NCBI GenBank assembly: GCA_028696945.1
Contig: JAQVGD010000010.1
Location: 1 to 35,436, forward strand
Source of the DNA: Lutibacter sp.
GTDB taxonomy: Bacteria; Bacteroidota; Bacteroidia; Flavobacteriales; Flavobacteriaceae
Direction: 5' to 3'
Length of the DNA: 35,436 nt
Position 1 is the stretch's first letter. Each line of letters opens with the position of its first letter. Made by a program: the position numbers and the translations under genes. This document shows positions 6,504 to 28,354 of the stretch, piece after piece. The notes beneath the pieces are model-generated. The model saw only the letters and a list, made by a program, of their open reading frames with translations, made no database searches and was not told where the DNA came from.

Positions 6504-6827
6504 ATGGCAAGTTTCGGACATTTCATAAAAACGGAAAGAGAAAAAAGAGAATGGACACAAACCGAATTTGGAGCTAAAATCGGAATTAATTCAAGTGCTA
6601 TTAGTAGAATTGAAAACGGTACTCAAAAATTTAGCAAATCTAAACTCAAATCACTCGCTACTTTATTTGAATTAGAATTACAAAGAATAACGGATTTATT
6701 CTTCGCAGATAAATTTGCAAGGGAGGCATTTAAATACAAATGTTCGGATGCTGTTTTTTCAGTAGCTGAAGACACTGCAAACTATTTGAAAAATACAAAT
6801 GTTAAACAAACAAAATTAGATTTATGA
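6504..6827 (+). CDS. XRE-family helix-turn-helix regulator of R-M system 1
   Basis: 107-aa DNA-binding protein. The HTH spans about residues 5-62 (REWTQTEFGAKIGINSSAISRIENGTQKF), followed by a charged C-terminal extension of about 40 residues of unknown role. It is the first gene of an operon: its TGA stop overlaps the ATG of the cytosine methyltransferase (ATGA). That position fits a controller or repressor that times methylase and nuclease expression. It is longer than the minimal C proteins (about 75-80 aa), so a plain autorepressor is equally possible. Confidence 0.82.
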   Translation: MASFGHFIKTEREKREWTQTEFGAKIGINSSAISRIENGTQKFSKSKLKSLATLFELELQRITDLFFADKFAREAFKYKCSDAVFSVAEDTANYLKNTNVKQTKLDL

Positions 6828-7822
6828 AAACTAAACTAAAATATATAGACTTATTTTCTGGAGCTGGTGGCTTCTCTTTAGGTTTTGACAATATCGGTTT
6901 TCAAAATGTCTTTTCTGTTGATATTGAGCCAAGTTTTTGCGAAACATACAAACATAACTTTTCGAATCATCAACTTATCGAAAAAGACATTTGTGCATTA
7001 TCTGATTCTGAAATAAAATATCTTAAAGAATTTGACGACATAGATGTTGTAATTGGTGGACCACCTTGTCAAGGTTTTAGTATTGCAGGAAATATTGGCA
7101 GAAAATTTGTTGACGACCCACGAAATAGGTTATTTAAAGAATTTGTAAGAGTTGTAAAAGTTATAAAACCAAAATTCTTTGTAATGGAGAATGTTGCACG
7201 ACTATACAATCACAATAAAGGAGAAACAAGAAAGGAAATCATAAAGGATTTTGAAAAATTGGGTTACAAAGTAGATTGTAAGATTTTAAATTCAGCAGAT
7301 TATGGTGTTCCCCAAGTTAGAAAAAGAGTAATTTTCATCGGCTCTTCAACGAATCAAAAAATTGAATTTCCACCAAAAGAAATTGAAAAATATGTTTCTG
7401 TAAAAGAAGCATTATCAAAATATCCAAAATTAGAATCTGGAGAGGAATCTTCAATTCCTAACCATATTGCAATGTCGCATTCCGAACAAATGCTTACCAA
7501 AATGAGCTATATTTCTGATGGTGGAGACAGAAACGAAATTCCTGTTAAAATTAGACCAAAATCGGGTGATGTTAGAAAGTACATTAAATACGCAAGTGGC
7601 AAACCTTCTGTCTGTGTAACAGGTGATATGCGTAAAATTTTTCATTATGAACAAAACAGAGCATTAACAGTTCGTGAACTTGCAAAATTGCAATCATTTC
7701 CAGATGATTTTATATTTAAAGGAAATAGAATATCCCAACAACAACAGGTAGGAAATTCTGTTCCACCAAAAATGGCAGAAGCAATTGCAAAAGTAATTAT
7801 CAAAATGAGCGGAAATGTTTAA
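6824..7822 (+). CDS. DNA (cytosine-5) methyltransferase of R-M system 1
   Basis: 332-aa C5-cytosine methyltransferase with all diagnostic motifs in order: I DLFSGAGG (residues 9-16) for SAM binding, IV GGPPCQGFS with catalytic C82, VI MENV (E122-N123), VIII QVRKRVIFIG, a short target-recognition region, and IX-X RALTVRELAKLQSFP...QQVGNSVPP. It should methylate the carbon-5 of a cytosine in its target site. The next gene starts 8 bp before its stop, so the genes are translationally coupled. The pairing with an adenine methyltransferase suggests a non-palindromic target needing a different enzyme on each strand, as described for systems such as HphI. The recognition sequence cannot be read from the protein. 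Confidence 0.93.
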   Translation: MKTKLKYIDLFSGAGGFSLGFDNIGFQNVFSVDIEPSFCETYKHNFSNHQLIEKDICALSDSEIKYLKEFDDIDVVIGGPPCQGFSIAGNIGRKFVDDPRNRLFKEFVRVVKVIKPKFFVMENVARLYNHNKGETRKEIIKDFEKLGYKVDCKILNSADYGVPQVRKRVIFIGSSTNQKIEFPPKEIEKYVSVKEALSKYPKLESGEESSIPNHIAMSHSEQMLTKMSYISDGGDRNEIPVKIRPKSGDVRKYIKYASGKPSVCVTGDMRKIFHYEQNRALTVRELAKLQSFPDDFIFKGNRISQQQQVGNSVPPKMAEAIAKVIIKMSGNV

Positions 7823-8876
7823 ATATCCTAAAGTCAATTATATTGGCAATAAAGAAAAGATTGCACAATGGATTTGCGACCAATTTCCGCAAGATGCAGA
7901 AACACTTTTTGATGCTTTTTCTGGAGGTTGCTCTTTAAGCTATGAAGCTAAATTCCGAGGTTTAGAAGTTTACACTAATGATATTTTAGAAATAAATTAT
8001 CACATTGCTAACGCATTAATCGAAAACAACGAATCGCTTCTTAATAATGAAGATATTGATATCATATTTTCAGGGAAACCTTATGAGGGTTTTATGTTTA
8101 ACAATTATTCGGAAGTTTATTTTTTTCCTGAAGAATGTAAAGAACTTGATTTATATAGAAAAAATATTGAAAAGTTAGATTCAGAAGAAAAAAAATCTTT
8201 AGCTTTTACTTTAATAAGAAGAGCTATGATTAGAAAAATGCCATATTCTCGCTTTAATCTTAATTGGGATAAAATAGTTCAGTTAAGAGATGAAGAATAT
8301 AGTTATGAAAAGTACAAACGTAGAAGAGCCTATCACAACCAATCTTTCAAATTTCACTTTCTTAAAAATCTAGATGATTACAACAATGCTGTATTTAATA
8401 ATAATAAAGTAAACAAAGCTTATAATGATGATGTTTTTAATTTATTAGAAACAGTTACAGCGGATATTATTTATTTAGACCCACCATATACCGGCACAAT
8501 GAATAATTATTTTGGGTTTTATGGTTTAATAGACGATTTTATTACGTCCAAAAAAACGGAGCCATTTGAAAATAATTTCATAAATAAAAATACCGCAGTA
8601 GAACTTTTTGATAAATTATTTTCAAGTTTATCAAATTTCAAATATTGGTATTTAAGCTATAATAATTCATCTTATCCTTCAAAAGACGAACTTTTATATT
8701 TACTAAATAAATATTCGGATAATGTTCAAGTCATTGAGAGAAAACACGTTTATAAAATCACAGGAAAAGAAAAGAAAGAAAGAAATAAGGAGTTTTTATT
8801 CATAGTTGAAAATGATTGTTATGGTAAGGATAAAAGTAACCGAACAAGACAAGAAGTTTGCGAAGCAACAAATTGA
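7815..8876 (+). CDS. D12-class DNA adenine-N6 methyltransferase of R-M system 1
   Basis: 353-aa Dam-like (alpha/D12) N6-adenine methyltransferase. The N-terminus YPKVNYIGNKEKIAQWI is the family's K-G-(N)K substrate and SAM lead-in. Motif I is DAFSGGCSLSYEA (F35-S-G-G), and the catalytic motif IV is D222-PPY225 (IIYLDPPYTGTMNNYFGFY). The middle (about 70-200) is the target-recognition part and is long and charged. It overlaps the cytosine methyltransferase by 8 bp at its start and the putative nuclease gene at its end, so all three are probably made from one message. It is expected to protect the strand or half-site not covered by the C5 enzyme. Confidence 0.9.
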   Translation: MFKYPKVNYIGNKEKIAQWICDQFPQDAETLFDAFSGGCSLSYEAKFRGLEVYTNDILEINYHIANALIENNESLLNNEDIDIIFSGKPYEGFMFNNYSEVYFFPEECKELDLYRKNIEKLDSEEKKSLAFTLIRRAMIRKMPYSRFNLNWDKIVQLRDEEYSYEKYKRRRAYHNQSFKFHFLKNLDDYNNAVFNNNKVNKAYNDDVFNLLETVTADIIYLDPPYTGTMNNYFGFYGLIDDFITSKKTEPFENNFINKNTAVELFDKLFSSLSNFKYWYLSYNNSSYPSKDELLYLLNKYSDNVQVIERKHVYKITGKEKKERNKEFLFIVENDCYGKDKSNRTRQEVCEATN

Positions 8877-10709: not shown

Positions 10710-12713
10710 ATGGAATTAAATTTAGATTTTGAACTAACAAAGACCGATAAACTATTAAGAAAGTTTGAAGAAATTCACAACTTCATTTATGCAAATGATG
10801 GTCTTTCTACTCAACAAACATTAGAAGAATTTATAAAAATTCTCTTCATAAAAGTAATTGACGAAAAGAAAAAAGAAAAACAATTCTATATTGATGATGT
10901 AGAATTTGAACAAATAAAAAGTTCAAAAAAATCAGAACAATTACTTCAAAGAATAAACAGTCTTTTTTCTAGTACAATACAGGAATACTCTGATTTATTT
11001 GATAAAGGCGATAGAATAAAATTAAGTCCATTATCATTAGCAAACACAGTTAATAAGTTACAAGATTTTTCATTAATTAATTCCTCAAATGACGCCAAAG
11101 GATTGGCATTTCAAAAATTCCTATCTCACCAAGAAAAAGATGGTAGAGGTCAATTTTTTACTCCAGAACCAATAATTGATTTTTGTGTTAGTATCATTCA
11201 GCCAAAACCAAACGAAACGATAATTGACCCAGCTTGTGGAAGTGGTGGTTTTCTAAACTCTTCGTTCAATTACATTTTAAAGAACAATAAAAATATCAAT
11301 GTAGAAAAAGTTGTTTCAGAGAATCTTTATGGTTTAGATATTAATAAAAGTATTGCACGAATTGCAAAAATGAAATTGCTACTTGAAGCAAATGTAGAGA
11401 CAAATGTAAAGTGTATTAACTCACTAACAGATTATGACGAAGTTTTGTTAAAAGTTAAAGTAGATAAAGCATCAAAAGGTTTTGATATTGTTTTAACAAA
11501 TCCTCCATTTGGTACAGCAGGAAAAATATCTGACAAAAAAATACTTTCCTCTTTTGATTTAGGCTACAAATGGAAAAAAGTAAATGATAATGAATTTATT
11601 AAGACAAATACACTTCACACAGGGCAAGTAGCAGAAATATTGTTTATTGAAAGGTGTCTTGATTTATTAAAAGAAGGCGGAAGAATGGGAATTGTATTAC
11701 CCAATGGTCATTTTGAAAATCCTTCATTGGAATATTTAAGGTATTATATTAAACAAAGAACAAAAATATTAGGAATTGTAAACTTACCACAAGAAACATT
11801 TATTCCTTATGGAACAGGTGTTAAAACTTCACTTCTTTTTGTTCAAAAAGACACTCCAAATATAGATAGAGAATATCCATTGTTCTTTAGCCAAATAAGA
11901 AAAATTGGTTATCAAGGAAATAAAAATGGAAGTCCTATTTATCAAAAAGATGATTATGGAAAAATTTTACGTGATTTAAATAAAAATCCAATTCTTGATG
12001 AAGACTTGTCTACCGTAATTGAAGATTACAAAAAGTTCCACAATGAAAAAAACATAGAAACTGAAAATTCATACTCTATTAAATACAATGAATTAAATGG
12101 TCGCTTTGATTATGATTTTTATTCACCACAGAACAGAAAATTAATTGAACTAATTGAAAAAAACAATGCTGTTCGATTATGTGATGTTGTTCAAGTTGTT
12201 AAAACAAAAAGTAAAAAATTAGCAAATAAAAATCTAACTGTAGAATACGTTGAATTATCAGATGTAAATACTCCATCTTTAGAAATTATAAACTCGACTG
12301 AAATGTCAGTTTATGAACTTCCAAGTAGAGCATCTTATGAAATAAAGCAAGGGGATATTATAACTGCTATTGCAGGAAATTCTATTGGTTCAAGAAAACA
12401 CGCAACTGCATTGGTCAATTCAGATTTTGATGGTGCAATTTGCACAAATGGTTTTAGAGTTTTACGAAATTTTAAAATCGACCCATATTATTTACTTTAC
12501 TATCTGAAATCTGAATATTTTCTTAATCAAATTTCAATGTTAAGAACAGGAGCTGCAATTCCAAATATTTCAGACAATGATTTCAAGAATCTATTAATTA
12601 GTATTCCAAGTGAAAAAGTAATTAAAGAAATAAGCGAAAAAGTGAAAAAATCATTTGAATTAAGAGAAAAGTCGAAAAGCGAACTTAATAGTATAGAATA
12701 TGAATTAGCGTAA
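10710..12713 (+). CDS. Type I-like adenine methyltransferase fused to a specificity domain (R-M system 2)
   Basis: 667-aa gamma-class N6-adenine methyltransferase. Residues about 1-120 form an HsdM-type helical N-domain. About 130-420 is the catalytic domain, with GQFFTP, motif I DPACGSGGF (from D173) and motif IV N264-PPF267. About 480-665 is a single HsdS-type target-recognition domain (VRLCDVVQVVKTKS...EIKQGDIITAIAGNSIGS...AAIPNISDNDFKNLLISIPS) ending in a helix. It is thus an M-S fusion with one half-site reader, unlike classical type I S subunits with two. A separate nuclease gene lies upstream, so the system behaves like a type II system built from type I parts. As a dimer it could read a bipartite palindrome. 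It is expressed from its own operator-controlled promoter. Confidence 0.9.
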   Translation: MELNLDFELTKTDKLLRKFEEIHNFIYANDGLSTQQTLEEFIKILFIKVIDEKKKEKQFYIDDVEFEQIKSSKKSEQLLQRINSLFSSTIQEYSDLFDKGDRIKLSPLSLANTVNKLQDFSLINSSNDAKGLAFQKFLSHQEKDGRGQFFTPEPIIDFCVSIIQPKPNETIIDPACGSGGFLNSSFNYILKNNKNINVEKVVSENLYGLDINKSIARIAKMKLLLEANVETNVKCINSLTDYDEVLLKVKVDKASKGFDIVLTNPPFGTAGKISDKKILSSFDLGYKWKKVNDNEFIKTNTLHTGQVAEILFIERCLDLLKEGGRMGIVLPNGHFENPSLEYLRYYIKQRTKILGIVNLPQETFIPYGTGVKTSLLFVQKDTPNIDREYPLFFSQIRKIGYQGNKNGSPIYQKDDYGKILRDLNKNPILDEDLSTVIEDYKKFHNEKNIETENSYSIKYNELNGRFDYDFYSPQNRKLIELIEKNNAVRLCDVVQVVKTKSKKLANKNLTVEYVELSDVNTPSLEIINSTEMSVYELPSRASYEIKQGDIITAIAGNSIGSRKHATALVNSDFDGAICTNGFRVLRNFKIDPYYLLYYLKSEYFLNQISMLRTGAAIPNISDNDFKNLLISIPSEKVIKEISEKVKKSFELREKSKSELNSIEYELA

Positions 12714-22629: not shown

Positions 22630-23106
22630 ATGTTTCAACAAACTTTTAAAAACATAGACGACATACTGCACAAAGATGCTGGTTGCGGCAGTGAATTGGA
22701 TTATGTAGAGCAAACCTCTTGGGTATTGTTTTTAAAGTATTTAGACGATTTAGAAAAAGACAAAGCAACTGCTGCGGAATTGACAGGTAAAGCATATACA
22801 AACATTATAGCGCCAGAATTTCAATGGACTACTTGGACAACTCCTAAATTACCAGATGGGAAAATAGATCACAATGCACTAACTAGTGATGATTTGGCAG
22901 ATTTTGTAAATATAAAACTGTTTCCATATTTCAAAAAATTCAAAATATCTGCCTTAAGTCCTGACACCATTGAATATAAAATTGGAGAGATTTTCTCGGA
23001 ATTAAAAAACCGTATTCAAAGTGGTTACAATTTGCGTGAAGTGATTAATTATATAGATCAGCTTAGGTTTGAAACAAGAGCAGAATTAATTGACAGCAAA
23101 TTATAG
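22630..23106 (+). pseudogene. hsdM: hsdM remnant: N-terminal domain only, fused to an hsdR scrap
   Basis: Residues 1-147 are a clean HsdM N-terminal helical domain (ELDYVEQTSWVLFLKYLDDLEKDKA, then IEYKIGEIFSELKNRIQSGYNLREVINYIDQLRF). Intact HsdM continues from here into the SAM-binding and NPPF catalytic domain. Instead the frame switches to ETRAELIDSKL and stops. That tail copies residues 5-15 of the HsdR at 24556: 23 bases (23071-23093 and 24568-24590) are identical, and similarity continues past the stop to about 23125. The catalytic domain is therefore deleted and no methylation is possible. It may still fold as a small helical domain. Confidence 0.82.
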
Positions 23107-23196
23107 GTTTGTCATTGGGGAGTTGAAAACAGAAAAAGAAGTTGTTGTTTAAAAACCTGTTGTCGCAAATAGTGCGATAACTCAATATAAAATTTG

Positions 23197-24189
23197 ATGA
23201 GTGAAATAGAAATATATAAAAATCCAGATAATCAATCAAATATTGAAGTGAAATTTGAGCAGGATACTGTGTGGTTATCTCAAAGTCAAATTTCAGAGTT
23301 ATTTCAGCGCGATAGAACCGTAATTACAAGGCATATAAATAATGTTTTTAAAGAAGGTGAGTTAGAAAAAGAACTGGTATGTGCAAATTTTGCACTAACC
23401 ACTCAACACGGTGCTGTTAAAGGAAAAACACAAAAAACAAACGTTACGTTTTACAATTTAGATGTAATTATATCAGTTGGTTATAGAGTAAAATCTAAAA
23501 GCGGCACCAATTTTAGAATATGGGCAACAAATGTATTAAGAGAGCAGCTCATTAATTCAGTAAAAAAAGCTACAGTTCCTTTAAAAACAGAAGAAAAGTA
23601 TCTCCAACTTCTCAAAACAATTAATATAGCAGCAAATGCAGCTGCTTTTAATGAATTAAGTGCTTCTGAAGCAACGGGTATTTTAAAAGTATTGCAATAT
23701 TATGCATATGCACTTGAAACCTTAGATAAATATGATCATCAGCAACTGTTAATATCAAACATAACCATTGGTGAAGTCAAAGAATTAAGATATGAAGAAG
23801 GTAAACAATTGATTAAACAATGGTCTGAAATACAAAATACTGGTGAACTTTTTGGTAGAGAAAAAGATGCTTCCTTTAAAAGTTCATTAAGAAGCGTTTA
23901 TCAAACTTTTGACGGTAAGGATGTATATCCAAGTATTGAAGAAAAAGCAGCAAATTTATTGTATTTCATTGTTAAAAATCACTCATTTACCGATGGTAAT
24001 AAACGTATTGCAGCAGGTTTATTCGCCTACTTTTTAGATAAAAACAATATGCTTTTTAAAAATGATGGAAGTAAAATTATTGAAGACAACGCATTGGTAG
24101 CCATTACAATAATGATAGCCGAAAGTAGATCAGAAGATAAAGATATTATGGTTAAATTAGTCGTTAATTTAATCAACAGTAACAATTAA
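23197..24189 (+). CDS. RhuM-like N-domain fused to a Fic/Doc domain
   Basis: 330-aa protein often found inside type I R-M operons. Residues about 1-130 are the RhuM (virulence protein) domain: IEVKFEQDTVWLSQSQISELFQRDRTVITRHINNVF is a winged-helix-like start, then NVTFYNLDVIISVGYRVKSKSGTNFRIWA. Residues about 200-320 form a Fic/Doc domain with H262-SFTDGNKRIAAGLF, the HxFxDGNKR active-site loop that transfers a nucleotide or phosphate to a target protein. The ATG at 23197 was preferred to the TTG at 23194. No separate antitoxin is seen, so the N-domain may control it. It lies between the hsdM remnant and hsdR. Confidence 0.85.
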   Translation: MSEIEIYKNPDNQSNIEVKFEQDTVWLSQSQISELFQRDRTVITRHINNVFKEGELEKELVCANFALTTQHGAVKGKTQKTNVTFYNLDVIISVGYRVKSKSGTNFRIWATNVLREQLINSVKKATVPLKTEEKYLQLLKTINIAANAAAFNELSASEATGILKVLQYYAYALETLDKYDHQQLLISNITIGEVKELRYEEGKQLIKQWSEIQNTGELFGREKDASFKSSLRSVYQTFDGKDVYPSIEEKAANLLYFIVKNHSFTDGNKRIAAGLFAYFLDKNNMLFKNDGSKIIEDNALVAITIMIAESRSEDKDIMVKLVVNLINSNN

Positions 24190-24555: not shown

Positions 24556-27300
24556 ATGAATGAAGCAGAAACAAGAGCAGAATTAATTGATCCCAAGTTA
24601 AAAGCTTGTGGTTGGGGAGTTGTAGAAGGTTCTAAAATCCTTCGTGAGTACCAAATATCAAAAGGTAAAATACAATCAGGTGGCATTCGCTCAAAACGTT
24701 CAGCGGCTGATTATGTTTTGGTGTATAAAGGTTTAAAATTAGCCATTATTGAAGCAAAAAGCAATGAATTAGAAGTTGGTGAAGGTGTCATGCAAGCTAA
24801 ATTATATGCCGAAAAATTACAACTGGAAACAACGTACTCATCAAACGGAAAAGAGATTTATCAAATTTGTTTAAAAACAGGTGAGGAACAATTGGTTGTA
24901 AATTATTTGTCGCCAGAAGAATTATGGAATAAAACATTTGCTGTTCAAAACCAATGGCGAGAGAATTTTGCAACAATCCCATTTGAAGATAAAAGTGGCA
25001 CTTGGGAACTTCGTTTTTATCAGGAAATAGCCATAAACAAAACATTAGAAGCTATTGCCAACAACGAGCAACGAATATTGTTAACATTAGCCACGGGTAC
25101 TGGAAAAACTGCCATTGCATTTCAAGTTGCTTGGAAATTGTTTCAAACACGGTGGAATTTAAATCGTGATGGAAGTCGAAGACCACGTATCTTATTTTTA
25201 GCCGACAGAAATATCTTAGCCGATCAGGCATTCAATTCATTTTCAGCATTTCCAGAAGATGCCTTGGTACGCATAAAACCAAGTGAAATAAAAAAGAAAG
25301 GAAAAGTACCAACCAACGGCAGTATTTTCTTTACCATTTTTCAAACGTTTATGAGTGGGCCTTCGACAAGCTCGAGCACCAATCATATTGATGAGAAAAT
25401 AGATTTTAATGAAATAACCATAAGTGATGTTGCAAAAGGCTTTATGTATGTGCTTCAATGCAATGATGGCAGTTTTTATACAGGAAGCACAAATGATTTG
25501 GTAAAAAGAATTGCACAACATAAAAATGGTGAAGGTGCGGAATATACAAAATTATATTTACCTGTAAAATTGGTTTATTACGAAACATTTGATAGGGTTG
25601 ACCTCGCTTTTGAAAGAGAAAAACAAATTCAAAAATGGAGCAGGGCAAAGAAAATAGCTTTGATAAAAGGTGACATAAAATTGCTTAAAAAACTTTCCAA
25701 AAACAAATCAGAGCAACAAAAGGTTCCTGAGCCTGTCGAAGGATATTTTGGCGATTACCCAGAAGATTATTTTGATTTAATTATTATAGACGAATGCCAT
25801 AGAGGCGGCGCCAATGATGAAAGTAATTGGAGAGGTATTTTAGATTATTTTTCACCAGCAGTGCAATTAGGTTTAACAGCCACGCCAAAACGAAAAGACA
25901 ATGTTGATACCTACGCATATTTTGGTGAGCCAGTATATGTGTATTCATTAAAAGAAGGCATTAACGATGGTTTTTTAACACCGTTTAAAGTAAAGCGTAT
26001 TCAATCTACGCTAGATGAATATGTTTATTCCAGCGATGATGAAATTATTGAAGGTGTGGCTGAAGAAGGTAAAGTTTATAAAGAAGATGATTTCAATAGA
26101 AAAATTGAAATTATGGAACGTGAAGCAGATCGTGTAAAAATGTATATGAATATTGCCAATCAGAACGAAAAAGCAATCATTTTTTGTGCAACACAAGTAC
26201 ACGCAGCTGCGGTCAGAGATTTAATAAATCAGTTAAAAACAAGTGATCATATTAATTACTGTGTGAGAGTTACAGCCAATGATGGCGCAATTGGAGAACA
26301 GTTTTTACGAGAATTTCAAGACAATGAAAAATCAATTCCAACCATACTTACCACTTCACAAAAATTATCAACAGGTGTAGATGCTCGTAATATTCGCAAT
26401 ATTGTTTTAATGCGTTCAGTAAACTCAATGATTGAGTTTAAACAAATAGTTGGTAGAGGAACACGGTTATTTGATGGTAAAGACTTTTTTACTATTTACG
26501 ATTATGTAAATGCCTATCATCATTTTGCCGATCCAGAATGGGATGGAGAACCAATTGCAGAAGAGCCTTGTGAGGTGTGTAATCAAAACCCTTGTGTTTG
26601 TACGGAAGCAGAAAAAAAACCTTGTAAGATATGCGGTCAACGCCCTTGTATTTGTGAAAAGCCAGAACCAGAAGCTTGCAAAGATTGTGGGCAAAAACCT
26701 TGTGTTTGCAAAAAGAAAGTAAAAATTAAATTGCGTAACGGTAAAGAATTGGAAATTCAACATATGGTATCAACTATGTTTTGGCAAGGCAGCAAGCCTA
26801 TAACTGTTGAAGAGTTTTTAAATAATATATTTGGAGAATTACCCAAATTCTTTAAAAGTGAAACTGAACTAAGAGAATTATGGAGCAATCCGTTAACCAG
26901 AAGAACCTTGTTAGAAAAATTAGCCGAAGCTGGTTTTGGAAATGATGAATTAACAACACTTCAAAAACTAATTGATGCTGAGAAAAGTGATTTATTTGAT
27001 GTGTTAGAATTTGTTTTTAACAGCGATATAAAACCAATTACCAGAGAAGCCAGAGTTGCAGCAGCACAAGCAACTATTTTCACCTTGTTAAACGACAAAC
27101 AAAAAGAATTTATAGAATTTGTGTTGGCTAAATATGTAGAAACTGGAGTTGGAGAGTTAGACCAAGAAAAACTACCAGTTTTACTTACCAATAAATATCA
27201 ATCTTTTGAAGATGCAAAAGCTGTTTTAGGTGAAGTTGCAGATATTAAAACATTATTTATAGATTTTCAGAAGTATTTGTATCAACAAGTGGTTGCTTAA
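24556..27300 (+). CDS. hsdR: Type I restriction enzyme R subunit (EcoEI-like HsdR) with inserted GIY-YIG domain
   Basis: 914-aa translocase-nuclease subunit of a type I R-M system. The N-terminal nuclease shows D52...E66-A-K68 (DYVLVYKGLKLAIIEAKS). Helicase motifs are A179-TGTGKT (Walker A), LFLADRNILADQ, D412-ECH, LTATPKR, IIFCATQ and QIVGRGTRL. About residues 671-720 hold three 18-aa Cys repeats of the form CxxCxxxPCxC, then the EcoEI-type C-terminal domain. Between FFTIFQTFMSG and YFGDYPEDYFD, where relatives have only a short linker, about 128 residues are inserted (269-396) and contain a complete GIY-YIG nuclease. The frame stays open. With no hsdS and a broken hsdM nearby, it probably cannot restrict DNA unless partners are supplied from elsewhere. 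Confidence 0.93.
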   Translation: MNEAETRAELIDPKLKACGWGVVEGSKILREYQISKGKIQSGGIRSKRSAADYVLVYKGLKLAIIEAKSNELEVGEGVMQAKLYAEKLQLETTYSSNGKEIYQICLKTGEEQLVVNYLSPEELWNKTFAVQNQWRENFATIPFEDKSGTWELRFYQEIAINKTLEAIANNEQRILLTLATGTGKTAIAFQVAWKLFQTRWNLNRDGSRRPRILFLADRNILADQAFNSFSAFPEDALVRIKPSEIKKKGKVPTNGSIFFTIFQTFMSGPSTSSSTNHIDEKIDFNEITISDVAKGFMYVLQCNDGSFYTGSTNDLVKRIAQHKNGEGAEYTKLYLPVKLVYYETFDRVDLAFEREKQIQKWSRAKKIALIKGDIKLLKKLSKNKSEQQKVPEPVEGYFGDYPEDYFDLIIIDECHRGGANDESNWRGILDYFSPAVQLGLTATPKRKDNVDTYAYFGEPVYVYSLKEGINDGFLTPFKVKRIQSTLDEYVYSSDDEIIEGVAEEGKVYKEDDFNRKIEIMEREADRVKMYMNIANQNEKAIIFCATQVHAAAVRDLINQLKTSDHINYCVRVTANDGAIGEQFLREFQDNEKSIPTILTTSQKLSTGVDARNIRNIVLMRSVNSMIEFKQIVGRGTRLFDGKDFFTIYDYVNAYHHFADPEWDGEPIAEEPCEVCNQNPCVCTEAEKKPCKICGQRPCICEKPEPEACKDCGQKPCVCKKKVKIKLRNGKELEIQHMVSTMFWQGSKPITVEEFLNNIFGELPKFFKSETELRELWSNPLTRRTLLEKLAEAGFGNDELTTLQKLIDAEKSDLFDVLEFVFNSDIKPITREARVAAAQATIFTLLNDKQKEFIEFVLAKYVETGVGELDQEKLPVLLTNKYQSFEDAKAVLGEVADIKTLFIDFQKYLYQQVVA
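25360..25742 (+). mobile_element. Palindrome-flanked GIY-YIG unit inserted in frame in hsdR
   Basis: The 383-bp unit is bounded by CCTTCGACAAGCTC (25360-25373) and GAGCCTGTCGAAGG (25729-25742), inverted repeats matching at 13 of 14 positions. The ends are translated as PSTSSST and VPEPVEG. Inside, from about 25438, is a GIY-YIG nuclease: FMYVLQ (GIY), FYTGST (YIG), LVKRIAQH (catalytic Arg and His), GEGAEYTK, then FEREKQIQKWSRAKKIALI with the metal-binding Glu. This is the small UPF0213-like class, which in Bacteroidota often exists as a stand-alone gene. No intein splice motifs and no target duplication are visible. Similar palindromes recur in many genomes (from memory), so this is probably a small nuclease-bearing mobile element. 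Confidence 0.75.
26566..26721 (+). repeat. Three tandem Cys-motif repeats within hsdR
   Basis: 18-codon units starting at 26566, 26620 and 26674 encode PCEVCNQNPCVC, PCKICGQRPCIC and ACKDCGQKPCVC with charged linkers. Four Cys per unit suggest zinc binding. Similar segments occur in other EcoEI-type HsdR proteins (from memory), so this is probably a normal family feature. Confidence 0.8.
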
Positions 27301-27678: not shown

Positions 27679-27867
27679 ATGGCAACTAATAATGAAATCA
27701 TAAAGATTTTAAAAAAGGATGGTTGGTTTTTACATAAGCATGGGAAAAAACATGATTTATATCGGCATCCGACTAAAAAAGGTCAACTACCAATTCTCAG
27801 ACATGGGAGTAAAGAATTGGCTAAAGGTACTTTAGAAAGTATCTTAAAGGGAGCAGGACTTAAATAG
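27679..27867 (+). CDS. hicA: HicA family toxin (mRNA interferase)
   Basis: 62-aa toxin of the HicAB system, a double-stranded-RNA-binding-fold RNase that cleaves mRNA when not bound by HicB. The family pattern is complete: ILKKDGWFLHKHGKKHDLYRHP with the probable catalytic H25, then LPILRHGSKELAKGTLESILKGAGL at the C-terminus. Length is normal. Toxin-first gene order is typical. hicB follows 79 bp downstream. The promoter and operator lie far upstream, leaving an unusually long leader. Confidence 0.93.
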   Translation: MATNNEIIKILKKDGWFLHKHGKKHDLYRHPTKKGQLPILRHGSKELAKGTLESILKGAGLK

Positions 27868-27946
27868 CCCTCCCTTTTAATAAGGATAACAACACAACTA
27901 AACAATTAACAGGTAGAGAGAATATTAAATTAAAAAGTTACAAAAA

Positions 27947-28354
27947 ATGAAAAAAGTATTCACAGCAATAATCGAAAAGACCAACACAGGTTTTTCAGGT
28001 TATATAAAAGAGATTGACGGTATTGTCACTGCTGGAGATAGTATTAACGAAATGAAGGAAAATTTTAAAGAGGCTTTGACAGACTACTTTGAATATTTGA
28101 CGGAAAAAGAAATTGAAGCCCCTCATATCAATGATGTTGAAATTAATTTTACAGTTGATATGGAACAATTTTTTGAACACTACAATGTGATTAATAAATC
28201 TGCATTTGCTGAATATATTGGTCTTAATCCTAGTTTATTTAGACAATATATCAAAGGGTTAACAAAATTATCCGATAAAAAAATGTTGCAGATTACAAAT
28301 GGATTACATAAATTAGCCGACGATATAAGCGATATAGTTTTAGTTAATAATTAA
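27947..28354 (+). CDS. hicB: HicB family antitoxin with HTH
   Basis: 135-aa antitoxin. Residues about 1-65 form the partly degraded RNase H-like HicB fold (FTAIIEKTNTGFSGYIKEIDGIVTAGDSINEMKENFKEALTDYFEY) that binds and blocks HicA. About 85-130 is an XRE-like helix-turn-helix (NKSAFAEYIGLNPSLFRQYIKGLTKLSDKKMLQITNGLH) that would bind the operator. Both features fit the neighbouring hicA and the inverted repeat at 27499-27529. A strong terminator follows about 45 bp downstream. Confidence 0.9.
   Translation: MKKVFTAIIEKTNTGFSGYIKEIDGIVTAGDSINEMKENFKEALTDYFEYLTEKEIEAPHINDVEINFTVDMEQFFEHYNVINKSAFAEYIGLNPSLFRQYIKGLTKLSDKKMLQITNGLHKLADDISDIVLVNN

Follow-up and report, generated by a model that had tools for sequence, protein, structure and literature searches.

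A stretch of 35,436 nucleotides from a Lutibacter sp. of the Flavobacteriaceae (assembly GCA_028696945.1, contig JAQVGD010000010.1; the whole stretch is called the window below) encodes a type I restriction subunit, HsdR, that contains a complete GIY-YIG nuclease domain. We consider it probable that this insert is a GIY-YIG module bounded by repetitive extragenic palindromic (REP) sequences, that it entered a loop of HsdR in frame and was kept there, and that it belongs to a widespread class of modules whose repeats are matched to the nuclease. The hsdR::GIY-YIG gene is a single open frame of 914 aa on the + strand (24556-27300), with Pfam domains in the order HSDR_N, ResIII, GIY-YIG, Helicase_C and EcoEI_R_C. 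That is, as the first-pass annotation of this DNA had claimed, and as the open frame and Pfam bear out, a whole GIY-YIG domain lies in frame between helicase motif I and the DECH box, with FFTIFQTFMSG on its N-terminal side and YFGDYP...DECH on its C-terminal side. The parts of the gene are given here together with those of a second fusion, L221, found in another genus and described below (pLDDT, predicted local distance difference test).

24556..27300, + strand: hsdR::GIY-YIG fusion gene, type I restriction subunit R (open frame, Pfam, NCBIfam).
24556..25359, + strand: N-terminal part of HsdR, with D52, E66, K68 and the Walker A motif TGTGKT, which vary little or not at all across 29 aligned HsdR (alignment).
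25360..25380, + strand: left repeat arm CCTTCGACAAGCTCGAGCACC, translated PSTSSST; the L221 counterpart is in frame and reads PSTSSGT (sequence).
25381..25434, + strand: N-terminal linker of the insert, NHIDEKIDFNEITISDVA, with a similar counterpart in L221; residues 268-279 have pLDDT <50.
25435..25701, + strand: GIY-YIG domain (PF01541, alignment of relatives, structure model).
25702..25721, + strand: C-terminal linker of the insert, NKSEQQ, mostly common to L221; residues 383-396 have pLDDT <50.
25722..25742, - strand: right repeat arm, GGTTCCTGAGCCTGTCGAAGG on the + strand, translated VPEPVEG; identical peptide in L221 (sequence).
25727-25741, within 25722..25742: core CTGAGCCTGTCGAAG of the right arm.
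25743..27300, + strand: remaining HsdR, with the DECH box, LTATP, QIVGRGTR and the EcoEI_R_C domain (Pfam, alignment).

Both partners of the fusion appear intact. The protein belongs to the EcoAI/FtnUII family of R subunits (NCBIfam NF046051, 766.6 bits against a cutoff of 550), and D52, E66, K68, Walker A, DECH, LTATP and RGTR are all conserved in an alignment of HsdR sequences; we take D52, E66 and K68 to be the PD-(D/E)XK site. These core motifs are common to EcoAI/FtnUII-type HsdR, to which the window protein adds a second nuclease domain between motif I and DECH. That domain is a GIY-YIG nuclease by its PF01541 match (aa 295-366, 62.5 bits against a cutoff of 22.6) and by its conserved Y, YxG, R and E; insert residues Y6, Y16-T17-G18, R26, H30 and E63 are invariant in 21 aligned relatives. 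Modeled alone, the insert reached a mean pLDDT of 91.2, and its nearest solved folds were UPF0213 (E 6.4e-06 and 2.4e-04) and, more weakly, Slx1 (E from 2.9e-03), which by the titles of its entries acts with Slx4 on branched DNA. An AlphaFold model of the whole fusion gave pLDDT 80-94 for residues ~281-380 and below 50 for the repeat-encoded ends (268-279 and 383-396); outside the insert that model was poor (mean pLDDT 61.9, predicted template modeling score 0.29).

The arms form inverted repeats matching at 13 of 14 positions in the core and at 17 of 21 over their full length, and they keep the frame open as PSTSSST and VPEPVEG, just as had been noted at first pass. Within the window, CCTTCGACANGCTC with at most two mismatches occurs only at the two arms (2 observed, 0.15 expected). 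Chance as the origin of the inverted repeat is a marginal matter if the window is taken alone, since 19 of 1899 random window positions of equal geometry score at least as well, making it only moderately unlikely; we rejected it on recurrence, the repeat being convincing because it returns in the arms of L221, which match at 19 of 21 positions (counted by eye), and around many free-standing relatives. A generic core, CTGAGnnnnTCGAAG, picked after order-level loci had been viewed, stands on both flanks in 3 of the window clade's 13 genes within the family and in 5 of its 9 order-level genes, against none of 846 control genes. Among conserved positions, the window and L221 use the same codon at 11 of 14 in the arms and at 325 of 649 outside them (Fisher p = 0.03), which hints weakly that the arms are constrained at the DNA level. 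In the window's genome CCTTCGACANGCTCNG (at most one mismatch) occurs at four places. Besides the arms there are two copies that lack a nuclease, each in frame within a gene: L010, for a UDP-GlcNAc 2-epimerase, and L012, for a DNA methyltransferase. Aligned with two solved homologs, the epimerase has a 14-residue insertion at the site of the repeat.

Related HsdR genes occur at 51 places in 47 of 397 genomes of the family; we read 30 loci including the window, the remaining 21 places being known only by their open frames (566-829 aa). The first-pass annotation had proposed comparison with HsdR genes lacking the insert, and would have been undone had most of them carried the domain without inverted repeats: that idea was rejected, GIY-YIG being present at only 2 of the 30 loci read. 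The distance from the FFTIFQ-type motif to DECH is 154 and 158 residues in the two fusions and ranges from 31 to 54 in the 28 others; the recipient site, a short linker in the first-pass reading, is a variable loop. Native loop residues seem to have been replaced by the insert. No further fusion was found at the thresholds used in 395 order-level genomes plus 2 genomes of the genus of L221.

L221 is a 904-codon frame with its insert at the same place. Between the window and L221 identity is 77% for HsdR, 75% for the GIY-YIG domain and 72% for the linkers; synonymous change is near saturation, and the ratio of nonsynonymous to synonymous change (pN/pS) is 0.23 for the GIY-YIG domain and 0.21 for HsdR. 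Because 75% identity and a pN/pS of 0.23 are seen at near-saturated synonymous change, the fused domain is, on this sequence comparison, under purifying selection, which favors some retained function. The first picture of a recent hop must be given up: the fusion has instead been kept in two genera through near-saturated synonymous divergence. The module might also be merely tolerated, persisting in a harmless loop with no role in HsdR, as would suit a loop that is naturally variable (31 to 54 residues in 28 loci), linkers that are predicted to be flexible and, in the window, a restriction-modification operon that is broken; yet neutral DNA so near synonymous saturation would lose its open frame, its 75% identity and its pN/pS of 0.23, and the conserved GIY-YIG residues are intact. 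We think such passive tolerance unlikely, though not far-fetched.

In a tree of 25 rows, without the order-level relatives (none of which the motif search found), the two fused domains were mutual nearest relatives, and a 96/98 branch set them apart from the other 20 rows on that side. This tree allows, but does not prove, that the two fusions arose once (two label changes, with one not excluded). Upstream of its fusion the L221 genome has both a full-length hsdM (N6_Mtase, HsdM_N) and hsdS (Methylase_S), with Pfam matches above cutoff and NCBIfam matches below cutoff, as well as an IS200-like transposase gene between hsdS and hsdR; a cognate HsdM and HsdS pair is not found alongside hsdR in the window. 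The recurrence in L221 also bears on the quality of the assembly. The window's assembly is fragmented (310 contigs) with 6.91% contamination, conditions under which a GIY-YIG gene could be joined to HsdR artificially, yet the same fusion exists in an independent genome from another genus, with synonymous divergence between the two, and we give an artifact of assembly or contamination next to no credence.

GIY-YIG genes at large were examined in a sample of the family, 80 stretches taken roughly by score from the list of GIY-YIG matches (leaving aside the window's genome, some other places and the end of the list), which yielded 87 GIY-YIG domains, 86 of them with enough flank. Neighboring genes of at least 100 aa, not size-matched, served as controls, 600 of the 846 being scored for inverted repeats and all 846 for repeat classes. 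Inverted repeats scoring at least 12 (250-bp flanks, ungapped +1/-2 score) were found around 56 of the 86 GIY-YIG genes, compared to 22 of 600 neighboring genes and 48 of 425 shuffled GIY-YIG pairings; direct repeats scoring at least 16 were found around 52 of 86 compared to 4 of 600, their frequency being due to longer repeat blocks on both sides. We wrote six repeat classes (C, S, T and W among them) as patterns after viewing these same flanks, and with classes so defined the same class stood on both flanks of 55 of the 86 GIY-YIG genes and of none of the 846 controls. Repeat class follows nuclease relatedness: 53 of the 55 agreed in class with their closest nuclease at a different locus, against a mean of 12.8 and a maximum of 25 with shuffled labels (2000 trials). 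For the window's own clade, inverted repeats were found at 7 of 13 family genes and, of ten loci at order level, at 7 of the 9 that were scored, with one repeat spanning 34 nt. The search for repeats around GIY-YIG frames, suggested at first pass with the thought that repeats confined to this one locus would speak against the idea, thus found them to be common. Plasmid and phage searches gave only relatives below 60% identity.

Residence inside other genes, which the same suggestion had asked about, proved rare: among the listed relatives only four lay in open frames longer than 200 aa, three of these being read-through into the next gene. L058, L061, L106 and L175 were rejected as mid-protein insertions because the nuclease frame continues through the repeat into the following gene. 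For L175 the read-through partner is a GHMP kinase by Pfam; in L058 Pfam found GIY-YIG only, and the partners in L058, L061 and L106 are presumably kinase-like, RecQ-like and PLP-enzyme-like. Three further loci have flanks of note. In L054 and L059, at ~8.4 kb, free GIY-YIG units apparently stand at an hsdM/hsdS junction (flanks read by eye), so that type I restriction-modification genes have been met three times with this clade. In L054 a 14-nt direct repeat, GTGAAGTTATGAGG, flanks the unit (~8428-8840); it overlaps the nuclease gene at its start and apparently the next gene at its start as well. In L055 the nuclease gene is followed, from ~8541, by tandem copies of the repeat core gacctattcgagagcctcagt.

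The association extends well beyond the family. A second sample comprised the best 80 of 547 confirmed places in named genomes, covering many phyla, 79 with enough flank; its query was an alignment of C/W-clade nucleases, clades already seen with C or W repeats in their flanks; the class C pattern was fixed before the sample was taken. Inverted repeats scoring at least 12 were found at 65 of the 79 loci compared to 14 of 302 control genes, and the CGTC-type pattern GTCATTCCnGCG (at most one mismatch) was on both flanks of 48 of 79 compared to 2 of 302. Outside Bacteroidota the corresponding counts were 29 of 37 compared to 4 of 122, and 21 of 37 compared to 0 of 122, with L161, from a Nitrotoga metagenome-assembled genome (MAG), omitted for sharing its neighbors with a Flavobacteriaceae MAG. 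The GTC heads of the nearest repeats pointed outward in 37 of the 48. Over both samples the units bounded by inverted repeats had a median span of 408 bp (n = 102), or roughly 400 bp. As to L160 and L161, the neighbors on the Nitrotoga contig match the Flavobacteriaceae MAG at high identity, probably through mis-binning.

Repeats and nucleases also co-occur at the level of whole genomes. With clade membership taken from the fetched loci, five or more exact S-class repeats were present in 12 of 18 genomes with an S-clade nuclease compared to 7 of 131 others, and five or more exact T-class repeats in 6 of 12 T-clade genomes compared to 4 of 137 others; in the crossed test, S repeats in T-only genomes gave p = 0.16 and T repeats in S-only genomes p = 0.017. 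An exact 17-base motif, counted for 36 of the 80 multi-phylum loci, was present in 33 of 36 genomes with such units, in up to 182 copies, its reversed-pattern control being present in 0 of 36. The 3.8-Mb genome G763 has this motif only twice, inverted and 357 bp apart, as the unit ends around the L168 nuclease gene; the spacing being that of the L168 ends, the exact motif exists in G763 only at the ends of a nuclease unit. Small GIY-YIG genes in repeat-rich intergenic regions might be supposed to collect repeats like any gene, given that repeats can be numerous and that a repeat of one class or another stands on one or both flanks of 53 of the 302 control genes. Against this stand the rarity of repeats on both flanks of controls (just 2 of 302 and 0 of 846, not size-matched), the outward heads in 37 of 48 and the two lone copies in G763, and we hold such a coincidence of habitat to be very improbable.

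GIY-YIG is a known homing family, and a free-standing GIY-YIG homing endonuclease gene is small and mobile-looking, as are the units described here. A classical free-standing homing endonuclease would cut specific target sites, with the repeats merely as ends or transcription terminators; weak NCBIfam similarity to group I intron endonucleases (below cutoff) and the many units at the same site in related genomes point that way. The likeness consists of a small gene with GIY-YIG; here it is repeat-bounded, has clade-specific dispersed solo repeats, and no intron was noted. The homing model does not predict clade-specific repeats dispersed genome-wide, and it is for this reason that we find it doubtful: solo repeats are frequent (the 17-mers in 33 of 36 genomes, the reversed control in none) and repeat class tracks nuclease relatedness. 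The window and most of the sampled relatives have a gene bounded by inverted repeats of one family, and the repeat family is matched to the nuclease clade. The window's own repeat has just the four places in its genome, two of them the arms.

In the reading that we favor, the unit is a gene for a GIY-YIG nuclease of ~90 aa, bounded by inverted short palindromic repeats of a family that goes with the nuclease clade. One such module inserted itself in frame into an EcoAI-type HsdR, at the variable loop, where the lack of stop codons from its repeats in the used frame allowed read-through, and selection has since kept the domain, autonomously folded on flexible linkers. The nuclease would recognize hairpins or cruciforms formed by the repeats and cut there, and repair would copy the unit or bare repeats to new places, as a GIY-YIG counterpart of the REP-associated tyrosine transposases (RAYTs) and their REPs. 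Within HsdR the domain would add cutting or nicking beside the motor, or preserve the insert. We infer both the mobilization of repeats by the nuclease and a gained activity of the fused HsdR from patterns in the genomes.

A number of observations weigh against the view of a mobile, repeat-bounded module kept for a function. Among 44 pairs of similar units (at least 80%), neighborhoods were compared for 22, and 13 of these 22 had at least one neighboring protein in common, meaning that units are often inherited in place. Nine had no common neighbor (e.g., L133/L141, L125/L130, L153/L155 and L134/L143) and in these similarity was confined to about the unit, a pattern that flank divergence could mimic. 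Occasional movement with long residence would fit these comparisons; transposition was not directly observed. No target-site duplication was recognized at the insert, and the window arms are singly not strong hairpins (folding z -1.18 and +0.43). Of the family GIY-YIG genes 31 of 86 lacked the same class on both flanks, and 14 of the 79 multi-phylum loci lacked a strong inverted repeat; shuffled pairings of the multi-phylum loci still scored at least 12 in 163 of 390, a high value that arises because unrelated genomes have one repeat family in common. Genomes without the S clade can hold many S repeats (at least five in 7 of 131). The cases are related by descent, so that Fisher values for the associations overstate the evidence. 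Finally, the window copy of the restriction system may be inactive, since its hsdM is truncated and a separate hsdS was not found in the window (20 of 33 open frames of at least 100 aa scanned, the other 13 at most 238 aa). As to the ends of the units, similarity stops at the outer edge of the downstream repeat in L128/L131 and L156/L157, both pairs being at shared sites; the Arenibacter pair L156/L157 was unusable as an empty-site test, both members being at the same site.

RAYT/REP systems combine a palindrome-flanked gene with solo repeats in the genome. The units described here resemble them, including REPtrons and REPINs, in that short palindromic repeats stand on either side of the gene and also occur singly elsewhere, as far as the text of one account describes them (PMC3733652). 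They differ in the enzyme: a RAYT (TnpA-REP) is an HUH tyrosine transposase, a domain not found here, where the domain is a GIY-YIG nuclease that also occurs inside a host protein under constraint. According to the text of the same account, CGTC REPs occur in five phyla, also within genes, and had no dedicated transposase as of 2013 (Di Nocera 2013, PMC3733652); their anatomy is a GTC head, AT as the first stem bases, an 8-bp stem, a 4-nt loop and a CCA tail, and the intragenic Rickettsia conorii CGTC repeats are the Rickettsia palindromic elements RPE-4 and RPE-6, with intragenic in-frame copies reported (PMC3733652). Stem, loop and tail of the C-clade flanks fit this description, as given in the paper's text rather than its consensus figure, and, unlike in the 2013 account as there worded, these CGTC-type repeats bound a GIY-YIG gene. 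They match the published CGTC tag only loosely, because the base preceding GTC is T far more often than C (117 and 18 of 139 matches), giving a head that is mostly TGTC. The window's own arms do not have the CGTC-AT stem and CCA tail: their core is CTGAGCCTGTCGAAG, and with the generic core CTGAGnnnnTCGAAG they form a different family. The first-pass comparison with Rickettsia palindromic elements is therefore apt by way of CGTC repeats, RPE-4 and RPE-6 and the C-clade flanks, as far as the text of that source carries it; the window arms themselves are of another repeat family.

Because the pairing of nuclease family and palindromic repeat recurs in bacteria of many phyla, it suggests that these small GIY-YIG nucleases supply the partner enzyme so far lacking for a large class of bacterial repeats. 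On these genomic patterns the nuclease is a strong candidate for the dedicated enzyme of CGTC REPs, an analog of RAYT in RAYT/REP. We lean, by a little, toward a broader proposal, in which standalone GIY-YIG nucleases would be dedicated enzymes of CGTC-type REPs and of several further Bacteroidota REP families (perhaps also of RPE-4 and RPE-6), a second, non-HUH class of repeat-mobilizing module, and their modules, once inserted in frame in a protein, would be adoptable as new catalytic domains; the restriction motor here would then have gained a second nuclease. With a clade-matched GIY-YIG partner, the origin of CGTC REPs becomes directly testable. The HsdR fusion, for its part, points to mobile modules as possible donors of entire catalytic domains to host proteins, without splicing and with selection then keeping the domain. 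Among the open-access papers listed, none joins GIY-YIG nucleases to REPs in its title or start of abstract (subscription papers and preprints were outside the search), and the word GIY did not occur in the individual papers that were text-searched. Within that literature the general association of enzyme and repeat, of which the window is an uncommon case, was not found in print, and it is strong.

Around the fusion the window holds remains of a restriction-modification locus and several modification genes.

22630..23106, + strand: truncated hsdM, HsdM_N only, 158 aa (Pfam).
23194..24189, + strand: RhuM/Fic-domain gene between the hsdM remnant and hsdR (Pfam).
6824-8876: cytosine methyltransferase and adenine methyltransferase, in tandem.
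10710-12713: N6 methyltransferase joined to a specificity domain.

The hsdM remnant ends in an apparent scar of an hsdR start, ETRAELIDSKL followed by a stop (~23071-23106). Because hsdM is truncated and ends in this way, an older hsdM-hsdS-hsdR arrangement may have collapsed by deletion. Adjoining hsdR, at 27680-28354, are a small gene that is HicA-like by eye and then a weakly HicB-like one (PF15919, 23 bits, cutoff 27). The window's contig is rich in modification genes, with tandem cytosine and adenine methyltransferases and an N6 methyltransferase fused to a specificity domain.

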